A stretch of DNA of 64,000 bases from Deltaproteobacteria bacterium (GTDB lineage: Bacteria > Myxococcota > Myxococcia > Myxococcales > Anaeromyxobacteraceae), in the NCBI GenBank assembly GCA_016214955.1, contig JACRMN010000010.1:186001-250000 (forward strand). Reading direction: 5' to 3'. The position numbers and the translations under genes are program-made. Of this stretch, positions 13,410-15,964 are shown in pieces; positions within the stretch are counted from its first letter, which is position 1; each line of letters starts with the position of its first letter. The notes beneath the pieces are model-generated. The model was not told the origin of the DNA. It worked only from the letters and a program-made list of their open reading frames with translations, and made no database searches.

Positions 13410-13802
13410 CTACCGCGCTGCCGCCCTCCCGAACTGCAGGAGGGTGTCGGCCGGCAGCGGCTCCAGCTTCTCGATGGTGAGCGACGGCTGGGCCCAGTCC
13501 ACGGCGAAGGTGACCCGCACCTTGTCGCCCACCGCCAGGCCCGCGAGCGGCAGGCTCTTCCCCACCGCGAAGCCCATCACCATGGCGTCCATGCCCACCA
13601 CCGCCCCGCTCCGGTCCTTGAACGCCGGGATGGCCTCGTGGCGCACCGAGAGCTCGTCGCCGGGGCGCGACGGCAGCCGGGCGATCTCGCCGCGCACCAC
13701 GTACCGGTCCACCTGCGCCGGGGGCGGCGGCGGCGCCGGGTCGCGGCAGGCGGCGAGGAGCAGCAGCGCGGCGGCCAGGGTGGCGGGGCGCAGGGTCGGC
13801 AT
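13410..13802 (-). CDS. CusF-like copper-binding lipoprotein
   Basis: A 130-residue lipoprotein with lipobox LLLLAAC. The mature part fits the small beta-barrel copper-binding family related to CusF: DRYVVRGEIARLP, then LSVRHEAIPAF, GMDAMVMGFAV and GLAVGDKVRVTFAVDW. The HEAIPAF and MDAMVM segments hold the His and Met residues typical of Cu(I) chelation in this family. It is expected at the periplasmic face, binding or delivering copper. The gene starts 8 bases after the stop of the MetE-fusion gene on the same strand and may be cotranscribed, though the functional link is unclear. The nearest copper enzyme in the window is the multicopper oxidase 8 kb away. Confidence 0.8.
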   Translation of the reverse strand: MPTLRPATLAAALLLLAACRDPAPPPPPAQVDRYVVRGEIARLPSRPGDELSVRHEAIPAFKDRSGAVVGMDAMVMGFAVGKSLPLAGLAVGDKVRVTFAVDWAQPSLTIEKLEPLPADTLLQFGRAAAR

Positions 13803-13810
13803 TGCCCTTT

Positions 13811-15370
13811 CTACCCCGGCAGCCGGTGGCGCGCCCGCAGCGATCGAGCCGCCCCGGCGATGGCCCGGAGCTGCGCCGCGGCGAGCTCGGCCGAGGCCAG
13901 CGGATTGTCGGCGAAGGTCGCGAAGCCGCAGTCGGGGTTGAGCAGCACCCGCTCCACCCCGAGGAGCTGCACCGCCCGCTCGGCGCGCGCCAGCACTGCC
14001 TCCTCGCGCTCCGGCTCGGGCCGCTTCTGGTTCACCACCCCCACCCCGACCCGCCTGTCGTCCGGCAGGCCCCGCAGCACCTCCAGCTCGCCGGCCCGCG
14101 GCGTGGCCAGCTCCAGGAACAGCGTGCCGACCGGCGCCCGGGAGAGCAGCCCCAGGAGCGGCCGGTAGTCGCCCGCCAGCGCCACCCGCTCGTCGGGGGT
14201 CCAGTTGCCGCGGCAGACGTGGAGCGCCAGCCGCTCGCGCGGCAGCCCGGCCGTCACCTGGGCCAGCAGCGCCTCCGCGAAGGCCAGCTCCTCCTCCGCC
14301 GCTCCGCGGGCGTCGAGCACGCCGCACATGAAGGTGCGATCGCCCGAGACGCTGCCGCCGAAGACCACCTCGGAGAGCACCGGTTCGTCGAGCTGGACGA
14401 GGGCCGCCCCCTCGGCCAGCAGGAAGTGGATCTCCTCGCGCAGCACGCGCACCACGTCGGCGGCCAGCTCCTCGCGCCTCGCGTAGGCGCGATCGGAGAC
14501 GCACTCCATCCACATGGTGCGCGTGAGCAGGTAGGGGCCGGGGAGCGCGACCTTGACGGGCAGGCGGACGGCCCGGCGCGCGAAGGCGAGCTCGTGCACC
14601 GCCAGCGGCCGGCTCCGCGACAGCGGCCCGAACACCGCCGGGTGGCGGACCTTGCCGGCTGGGACGTCGAGCGCCTGGAGCTCGCGCGCGAACTCGGCCG
14701 GATCGGCCACGTAGGGCAGCAGGTCGGTGATGGGCACCAGCTGGCAGTTGTCGAGGCGGGCGCCGACGAAGCTGGCGTAGTTGTCACGCCGCTGCTCGCC
14801 GTCGGTGACCAGGTCCACGCCCGCCTCGACCTGGGCCTGGAGCGCGAGCCGCACGGCGTCGTCGGCGGTGGCCTGGAACTCCTCCTCCCCCAGGCGCCCC
14901 TCCAGGTGGGCGTGGAGCGCCGCCAGGAGCCAGCGGGGCCGGGGCCAGCTGCCCACCCCGGTCACCGCCAGGGGCGGGAGCGGCGCCACCGGCGCGGGGG
15001 CCGGCAGCGACGCGGGGACGTGCACCGGGCGCAGCTCGCGGGCCGCGGGCATGGAGGCCCGGCCCGGGGCCACCGGCGGCGCGGCAGCGGGGACGAAGCG
15101 CCCCTTGGCCACCAGGAAGCTGTACACGCCCTCCCCGCGCCGCTCCGACACCAGCTCGTTCCCCGTCATGCGGCACCAGGCCGGCAGGTCCTCGCACACC
15201 GAGGACTCGGCCGAGCGGATCTCGAGGAGCTGGCCCGCGGCCAGCGGGTCGATGTGCTGCCGGATGAGCAGCAGGAGGCCGCTGCCGCAGTCGAGTGTCC
15301 CGCCGTCGAAGGAGGCGTGGGGCGCGTGGGGATGTCCGGGAACGGAGTCGGCGGGGGGCACGGGCGTCAC
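13811..15370 (-). CDS. TusA-like domain fused to MetE catalytic core
   Basis: A 519-residue fusion. Residues ~20-95 form a TusA-like sulfur-carrier domain (GGTLDCGSGLLLLI and ESSVCEDLPAWCRMTGNELV) in which the usual CPxP is replaced by CGSG. After a Pro/Ala-rich linker, residues ~140-519 form the C-terminal half of cobalamin-independent methionine synthase, without the N-terminal MetE domain. Zinc ligands are all visible: LALHVCRGNW (His, Cys), TLFLELATPR (Glu) and LLNPDCGFATF (Cys); VTGVGSWPRPRW and VTDGEQRRDN are also family motifs. It could transfer a methyl group to homocysteine, but the donor is unknown since core-MetE proteins are often folate-independent. The start is GTG, five bases from the stop of the DsrE-like gene, without a strong ribosome site, suggesting translational coupling. 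Confidence 0.85.
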   Translation of the reverse strand: MTPVPPADSVPGHPHAPHASFDGGTLDCGSGLLLLIRQHIDPLAAGQLLEIRSAESSVCEDLPAWCRMTGNELVSERRGEGVYSFLVAKGRFVPAAAPPVAPGRASMPAARELRPVHVPASLPAPAPVAPLPPLAVTGVGSWPRPRWLLAALHAHLEGRLGEEEFQATADDAVRLALQAQVEAGVDLVTDGEQRRDNYASFVGARLDNCQLVPITDLLPYVADPAEFARELQALDVPAGKVRHPAVFGPLSRSRPLAVHELAFARRAVRLPVKVALPGPYLLTRTMWMECVSDRAYARREELAADVVRVLREEIHFLLAEGAALVQLDEPVLSEVVFGGSVSGDRTFMCGVLDARGAAEEELAFAEALLAQVTAGLPRERLALHVCRGNWTPDERVALAGDYRPLLGLLSRAPVGTLFLELATPRAGELEVLRGLPDDRRVGVGVVNQKRPEPEREEAVLARAERAVQLLGVERVLLNPDCGFATFADNPLASAELAAAQLRAIAGAARSLRARHRLPG

Positions 15371-15374
15371 CGGA

Positions 15375-15737
15375 TCAGTAGCTCATGCAGGGGGCGCCGG
15401 AGGCCAGGAACTCGACCACCTTGGCGCCGCCGACGATGGTGGCCCCGTCCACCAGCGCCTTCTCGTCGAGCCCGCGCTTCTTGAAGCAGGGGGAGCAGAC
15501 GTAGATCTTGCCGCCGCCCTTCACGAAGTTGCCGAGCAGGTCGCGCAGCGGAGCGAAGCCCTCCTCGTGGATGTCGTCGGCGTACCCCTTCACCGCCAGG
15601 CGCACGGCCTCGGTGGAGAGGAAGACCAGGGTCTCCTGGGCGGAGGCCACCGCGGCGTTGGCGACCACGAAGCCGACGGTGGCCTTGTCGGTGTCGTTCC
15701 TGGCGTGGGTGATGGAGACGCAGAGCTTGCCTGCCAT
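15375..15737 (-). CDS. DsrE-like sulfur-relay protein
   Basis: A 120-residue single-domain protein of the DsrE/DsrF-like type. It begins MAGKLCVSITHARND, continues with VFLSTEAVRLAVKGYADDI and has KIYVCSPCFKKRGL with a CxxC near residues 81-84, then ATIVGGAKVVEFLASGAPC. In this family such cysteines can carry persulfide sulfur. The ATG is preceded by AAGGAG. It sits between a TusA-like gene (2-base gap upstream) and the TusA-MetE fusion (4-base gap downstream), which strongly suggests a dedicated sulfur relay. The exact donor and acceptor are unknown. Confidence 0.85.
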   Translation of the reverse strand: MAGKLCVSITHARNDTDKATVGFVVANAAVASAQETLVFLSTEAVRLAVKGYADDIHEEGFAPLRDLLGNFVKGGGKIYVCSPCFKKRGLDEKALVDGATIVGGAKVVEFLASGAPCMSY

Positions 15738-15739
15738 GT

Positions 15740-15964
15740 TCAGGACTCCTTCCTGCGGATGAGGTAGCGGGGGTGATCCGCCCGGAGCAGCGTGTTGCCG
15801 GTGAGCCGGCACCAGGCGGGGATGTCCTGGGGAGCGCCCAGGTCGGTGGCGGTGAGGAGCAGCGACGCGCCCGGCGGAAGGGCGCGCAGCCGCTGGGCCA
15901 GCAGGAAGACCAGCTCCCCGCAGCCCATGTCGCCCGCGTCCCAGGCCTCGTCGTGCGCCTGCAT
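15740..15964 (-). CDS. TusA-like sulfur carrier protein
   Basis: A 74-residue TusA-family protein, close to the usual length. The active-site cysteine is retained in DMGCGELVFLLAQRL, but the CPxP motif reads CGEL. The second half, DLGAPQDIPAWCRLTGNTLL, is typical of the TusA fold and very similar to the domain fused to MetE two genes downstream. The ATG at 15964 has GGGAG upstream; an in-frame ATG at 15997 is possible but would add a charged tail. It is the first gene of the four-gene leftward unit. Confidence 0.8.
   Translation of the reverse strand: MQAHDEAWDAGDMGCGELVFLLAQRLRALPPGASLLLTATDLGAPQDIPAWCRLTGNTLLRADHPRYLIRRKES

Follow-up and report, generated by a model that had tools for sequence, protein, structure and literature searches.

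In the HcyS/MetY system, homocysteine is synthesized from protein-bound sulfur, with a thiocarboxylate carrier working alongside MetY. A different carrier, YedF, is a fusion of TusA and DsrE that has been linked to selD (Lin et al., Zhang et al.; PMC2432076, PMC5322559). Type 1 mlp clusters of anaerobes encode methyltransferases of the UroD superfamily that are proposed to demethylate methyl-selenides; these clusters are corrinoid-dependent and the methyl group is proposed to be recycled to methionine (Kountz and Balskus, PMC10418091). Core methionine synthases, MesA to MesD, were described by Price et al., and 3rpd is a MesD structure (PMC7857596).

We analysed a stretch of 64,000 nucleotides (hereafter the window) from a Deltaproteobacteria bacterium of the Anaeromyxobacteraceae (assembly GCA_016214955.1, contig JACRMN010000010.1). 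A preliminary description of this DNA had pointed out three genes, separated by 2 and 4 bases, for a TusA-like carrier with CGEL, a DsrE-like protein with CxxC and a TusA-like domain fused to the core of MetE. Open reading frames, translations and Pfam searches confirmed this operon (Table 1), and GC at third codon positions of its genes is 0.91–0.97, matching the expectation for real genes here. Both parts of the fusion ORF were recognized by Pfam: TusA with 32.9 bits (cut-off 28.6) and Meth_synt_2 (PF01717) with 86.4 bits (cut-off 21). The two TusA domains had also been called closely similar, which they are not: they are 28% identical in the window and 33–38% identical in orthologous loci. 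A gene for a CusF-like copper-binding lipoprotein (13410-13802, minus strand) starts 8 bases past the fusion stop, and the operon may continue into it; we doubt that it has a part in the operon, because no CusF-like gene was seen adjoining the fusion in other loci.

Table 1. Genes, domains and key residues of the operon (window coordinates; residue numbers refer to the fusion protein)
Feature	Coordinates	Strand	Remarks
Small TusA-like carrier	15740..15964	-	74 aa; CGEL replaces CPxP; Pfam TusA 33.2 bits (cut-off 28.6)
DsrE-like protein	15375..15737	-	120 aa; CSPC motif; Pfam DsrE 54.8 bits (cut-off 22.7)
TusA::core-MetE fusion	13811..15370	-	519 aa, one ORF
TusA domain of fusion	15095..15319	-	residues about 18-92; C28 in DCGSGL, C66 in PAWCR
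Core-MetE (UroD superfamily) domain of fusion	13814..14980	-	residues 131-519
Predicted zinc ligands			H384, C386, E420, C481; core-MetE domain
Predicted homocysteine contacts			S141, E192, D328; core-MetE domain
Extra cysteines			C209, C290, C349; core-MetE domain

Like TusA/SirA proteins, the TusA domains of the module score above the Pfam gathering score, possess an acceptor and a second cysteine and are predicted to fold as beta-alpha-beta-alpha-beta-beta; unlike them, they carry CGxG or CGEL in place of CPxP, and one of the two copies is fused to an enzyme. The AlphaFold2 model of the fusion (pLDDT 85.9, pTM 0.78) has this TusA-like order of elements at its N-terminus, and a profile of the fusions matched the solved TusA chains 1dcj/3lvj (E 2e-5). 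No TusA chain was listed by a fold search, which covered mainly residues 111-516 and barely 1-110. The Pfam match, the profile match and the predicted fold support a TusA assignment of the N-terminal domain.

The C-terminal part of the fusion aligned with MesD 3rpd (Z 36.5, rmsd 2.5 Å, 323 aligned residues) and also with MetE, which supports the core-MetE fold claimed for it. In agreement with the earlier observation, all four MetE zinc ligands are present in the translation (as HxC..E..C) and the N-terminal MetE domain is missing. The fusion thus resembles MesA to MesD, which likewise have PF01717 without an N-terminal MetE domain (Meth_synt_1) and share the zinc ligands and homocysteine contacts; PF08267 reached 20.2 over the catalytic half (cut-off 27). 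As in MetE and MesD, an E stands where MesA and MesC have Q. In contrast to MesA to MesD, to which it is 21–27% identical, the fusion has an N-terminal TusA domain, operon partners DsrE and TusA and three extra invariant cysteines. It also remains below every NCBIfam cut-off for a named methionine synthase (best, NF003317, 143.7 versus 406; NF006589, 93.1 versus 392). We class it as a core-MetE-like enzyme to which a chalcogen carrier has been joined, outside every named Mes family. Of 50 fusion genomes, 43 encode MetH, and so does the window genome; the fusion is therefore accessory, and we reject a replacement methionine synthase. From the suggestion of a sulfur-relay-linked methionine synthase we retain the idea of coupled chalcogen and methyl transfer, but not that of an ordinary methionine synthase.

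The module shares with YedF (TIGR03527; SirA-like plus DsrE-like) the pairing of a TusA-like protein with a DsrE-like CxxC protein and, subject to the clade effect described below, an occurrence in selenium-linked genomes. However, its TusA and DsrE are separate genes, the motif is CG rather than CPxP, a MetE-core fusion is present and selD does not adjoin. With HcyS/MetY it has in common that carrier-bound sulfur is tied to homocysteine metabolism, but its carrier is of the TusA type rather than a thiocarboxylate protein, and its enzyme is a methylase domain rather than MetY. With the type 1 mlp clusters it shares a zinc methyltransferase of the UroD superfamily alongside selenium genes; it differs in having persulfide-type carriers as conserved neighbours, and no corrinoid protein or reductive activase was recognized in the neighbour families that recur across about 80 loci. 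In the reading proposed below, the module would be a corrinoid-free counterpart of these anaerobic methyl-selenide clusters. We found no description of a TusA-MetE fusion operon in the open-licence literature, and we saw no TusA fusion in the account of Mes enzymes by Price et al. (PMC7857596). The operon is annotated piecemeal; on a Paracoccus plasmid, for instance, its genes are labelled 5-methyltetrahydropteroyltriglutamate--homocysteine methyltransferase, TusA and DsrE.

We scanned 84,980 species genomes for the fusion with the patterns RTMWMEC and FDGG[TAS]LDC and kept the best 80 of 166 relatives, all with at least 60% identity to the window protein over its whole length. The architecture is not peculiar to the window strain: at least 80 fusion loci were found in six phyla or more, among them Myxococcota, Planctomycetota, Proteobacteria, Binatota, Actinobacteria and Obscuribacterales. 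Hosts among these best 80 of 166 include Anaeromyxobacter, Burkholderia, Massilia, Duganella, Bordetella, Xanthobacter and Nitrospirillum as well as Planctomycetota, Binatota, Micrococcaceae, Propionibacteriaceae, Obscuribacterales and others. Since the fusion recurs at 60–77% identity in distant phyla, it is more than a chance product, and mean identity to the window protein is 70% in the TusA domain and 69% in the MetE domain but only 29% in the linker. The preliminary description had raised the question whether the small genes always accompany the fusion. Among 82 loci, DsrE adjoins it in 80, and about 72 have a separate TusA. Eight of the ten loci without a separate TusA belong to Binatota; of the two without DsrE, one is ended by a contig edge and the other is from a metagenome-assembled genome (MAG).

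In the family of the window genome, five genomes carry the fusion (74–77% identity) with the same small genes in differing surroundings, and two of the five, both MAGs, carry two operon copies each. The recurrence of the same genes in unrelated surroundings, twice per MAG, suggests that the operon is mobile. The two MAGs are uncultured Anaeromyxobacter (L041, L042, L044, L045), and one of their settings has recombinase-like and molbindin-like genes nearby, as judged by eye. Within sampled families the fusion is rare (7/195 Burkholderiaceae, 6/197 Micrococcaceae). We regard the three genes as one mobile, widely conserved chalcogen-relay module, the conservation of which is well shown, and consider it highly probable that its proteins act together. 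The operon is a conserved and apparently horizontally moving trait of many soil and water bacteria. On a Nocardioides plasmid (L135), a TusA-DsrE pair with a TusA of about 220 aa adjoins DUF4242 and is without a MetE fusion.

Residues C28, C66, H384, C386, E420, C481, S141, E192 and D328 are invariant in 79/79 aligned fusions; zinc-ligand and homocysteine-contact assignments follow the MetE and MesD residues given in PMC7857596. Further cysteines in the MetE domain are equally conserved (C290 and C349 in 79/79, C209 in 78/79), although the figures for C290, and for C28 in loci found with the second pattern, are biased upward because the scan patterns contain these two residues; the other invariant residues are unaffected. 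Six unfused relatives have none of the three extra cysteines but retain each zinc cysteine in every sequence long enough to include it. Among the partners, both CxxC cysteines of the DsrE-like protein are present in 72/72 sequences, and C15 and C52 of the small TusA in 55/55 and 54/55 homologues. CG replaces the CPxP motif in all aligned TusA homologues, the cysteine itself being invariant. No in-frame stop was found in any TusA or DsrE match, and we therefore rejected selenocysteine as a substitute for the operon cysteines. Several bacteria, many of them Planctomycetota (L080:8411-8986, L053, L057, L062, L070, L076), encode a small TusA with an N-terminal cysteine-rich extension of no assigned family.

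The MetE-like domain is confidently predicted to bind zinc and a homocysteine-like substrate, and C28 is probably a carrier of sulfur or selenium. We propose that C28 would capture a methylated chalcogen, most likely as methylselenyl (CH3-Se-S-Cys28) and possibly as methylthio (CH3-S-S-Cys28). The zinc site would activate homocysteine, which would take the methyl group to yield methionine. A selenopersulfide (or persulfide) would be left on C28 (Cys28-S-Se(-)) and would then move to C66, on to DsrE and the small TusA, and finally reach selenophosphate synthetase or a sulfur sink. In many Proteobacteria, the substrate might be imported by a PhnCDE-type importer and/or two envelope proteins encoded in the operon. 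On chemical grounds, a perselenide or persulfide should leave more readily than a plain selenolate or thiolate, and this would account for the fusion of a carrier to a methylase. The proposal accommodates several observations at once: the zinc and homocysteine residues argue for homocysteine or a methionine-like substrate, TusA, DsrE and the extra cysteines for sulfur or selenium bound to a carrier, the Paracoccus island described below for selenium, and the importer genes for uptake of some compound. Precedents are YedF, which joins TusA to DsrE and is linked to selD, and the type 1 mlp clusters, for which selenium release by corrinoid-dependent demethylation is proposed within the same superfamily. 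Movement of the methyl group from the carried chalcogen onto homocysteine, and with it the full mechanism, is put forward tentatively. More tentatively still, and as a rather unlikely outcome, the fusion would be the first corrinoid-free enzyme to demethylate protein-bound methyl-selenium or methyl-sulfur, yielding methionine and carrier-bound selenium for selenophosphate synthesis and so opening an aerobic way to recycle methylated selenium. If methylated selenium or sulfur is recycled in this cobalamin-free manner, the recovery of methylated selenium by aerobic bacteria would be accounted for; TusA and DsrE, as chalcogen carriers, would also gain a new enzyme to work with, and the MetE/UroD superfamily a new chemistry.

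The extra cysteines, invariant or nearly so and specific to this family, would also suit a protein that is no longer a methyltransferase and uses its zinc and homocysteine pocket to load selenide or persulfide onto the carriers, for supply or detoxification. Three carrier proteins in one operon, and SufS and TrxB genes adjoining it in Paracoccus, point the same way. We nevertheless consider this unlikely, as it is difficult to see why S141, E192 and D328 should be invariant unless the substrate is an amino acid; the corresponding S, E and D contact homocysteine or methionine in MetE and MesD (PMC7857596).

The neighbourhoods of the operon show three recurrent settings. In Burkholderiales, Nitrospirillum and Xanthobacter, TusA and DsrE are followed by a phosphonate-type ABC importer and the fusion, often with a second DsrE-like gene. 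The importer comprises a PhnD-like protein and PhnE and PhnC, the latter two above the NCBIfam cut-off; assignment of the PhnD-type protein to the 'selenate' family TIGR04553 was rejected (77 bits versus 250). In Bordetella, Achromobacter, Xanthobacter and Paracoccus, TusA and DsrE are followed by genes for a small membrane protein and for an envelope protein of 510 aa, and then by the fusion; the Xanthobacter loci of this setting also hold a PhnE-type gene. About 11 loci have these two genes (L121:7893-9987 and equivalents), the small protein with a CVSC motif and the larger one anchored. Neither had a Pfam or NCBIfam match, the larger one had no PDB match, and its predicted model was too poor for use (pLDDT 49.6). 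A 2022 review stated that no high-affinity selenium transport system had been identified (PMC9312934), and the importer genes of these operons are candidates for selenium transport. In Binatota, DsrE and the fusion are divergent from metY, metX and metW, named by reading of the translations, and from a gene placed in the nucleoside phosphorylase family by a family search. The adjoining met genes are consistent with homocysteine as substrate. The divergent fhs gene of the window, mentioned in the preliminary description as another one-carbon gene, is not conserved beside the fusion in other loci, and we rejected a link to it. Riboswitch control was likewise rejected, as Rfam recognized no riboswitch (SAM or other) in 13 loci.

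The import genes also bear on the reverse reaction, in which a carrier-bound persulfide or selenide would be methylated, with methionine or another donor, and exported or detoxified as a volatile methyl compound. Zn-thiolate enzymes are reversible in principle, and a mobile, patchily distributed operon resembles a resistance trait. Yet the transporter in the operon is of the importer and not the exporter type, with PhnC and PhnE above their cut-offs, and methionine is by established chemistry a poor methyl donor. We regard the reverse reaction as very improbable.

Selenium context, import genes and the very wide distribution of the fusion go beyond the preliminary description. Paracoccus plasmids place the operon inside a selenocysteine island with the gene order selB, UGSC selenoprotein, transglutaminase, SufS-type desulfurase, TusA, DsrE, two unknown genes, fusion, selA and trxB. 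In P. ferrooxidans, selA lies 77 bases downstream of the fusion and tRNA-Sec within 25 kb. The UGSC selenoprotein gene of its plasmid pFER4 (L127:5532-6098) has been split in the annotation into a pair of hypothetical proteins; PF24696 matches on either side of an in-frame TGA, and the halves join up once this codon is read as U. P. versutus has the same selenocysteine island, with its tRNA-Sec outside the conserved block. Among the loci compared, sel genes adjoin the operon only in Paracoccus. We rejected a location of selD next to the fusion: in the genomes compared it is either 52 kb distant or on a different contig.

Of 51 fusion genomes, 48, the window genome included, have a selD score above the cut-off, and the three exceptions are MAGs. 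A single in-frame TGA lies within the selD frame of the window genome (G000:C22:121009-121932), which suggests that this organism decodes Sec and that its SelD contains selenocysteine. This YedF-like association with selD is strong but confounded by clade: selD is already common in most clades (167/195 of the Burkholderiaceae sample, 141/154 of the planctomycete class, 48/60 Myxococcota relatives), so that 48/51 is weak alone and most of the signal is shared ancestry. In view of this background control we rejected the selD profile as clear proof of a selenium role. The Micrococcaceae sample is the informative one: in this family, where selD is found in 54/197 and the fusion in 6/197 genomes, all six fusion genomes are selD-positive (hypergeometric 3.4e-4); these share one selD subtype (E about 1e-110), which one further genome has without the fusion, and thus represent one selD lineage and not six independent events.

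That selenium rather than only sulfur is the relayed atom is, in our judgement, a serious possibility just short of being the probable one. The high selD background in most clades would also fit an accessory methionine synthase that needs no folate and works solely in sulfur metabolism. Carrier-bound methylthio groups or another methyl donor would then methylate homocysteine, the TusA/DsrE relay would handle sulfur, and selenium would be incidental. The invariance of all zinc and homocysteine-contact residues, MesD 3rpd as the closest solved relative, the metX-metW-metY genes adjoining the fusion in Binatota and the classic role of TusA and DsrE as sulfur carriers would all agree with such a synthase. 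It is harder to reconcile with MetH in 43/50 fusion genomes, with the Paracoccus Sec island and with selD in all six fusion genomes of the selD-poor Micrococcaceae, and we consider it possible but not probable. Taken together, this sulfur-only version and the version without methyl transfer are somewhat more likely than our specific methyl-chalcogen proposal.

A fusion of another kind was seen at L026:668-2739, where a PhnD/Rv1680-like gene is followed by a TusA-like domain fused to a ferritin-like domain (R2/DUF455-type, weak match). This TusA-like domain is without the motif cysteine and shows that fusions of such domains extend to other enzymes.
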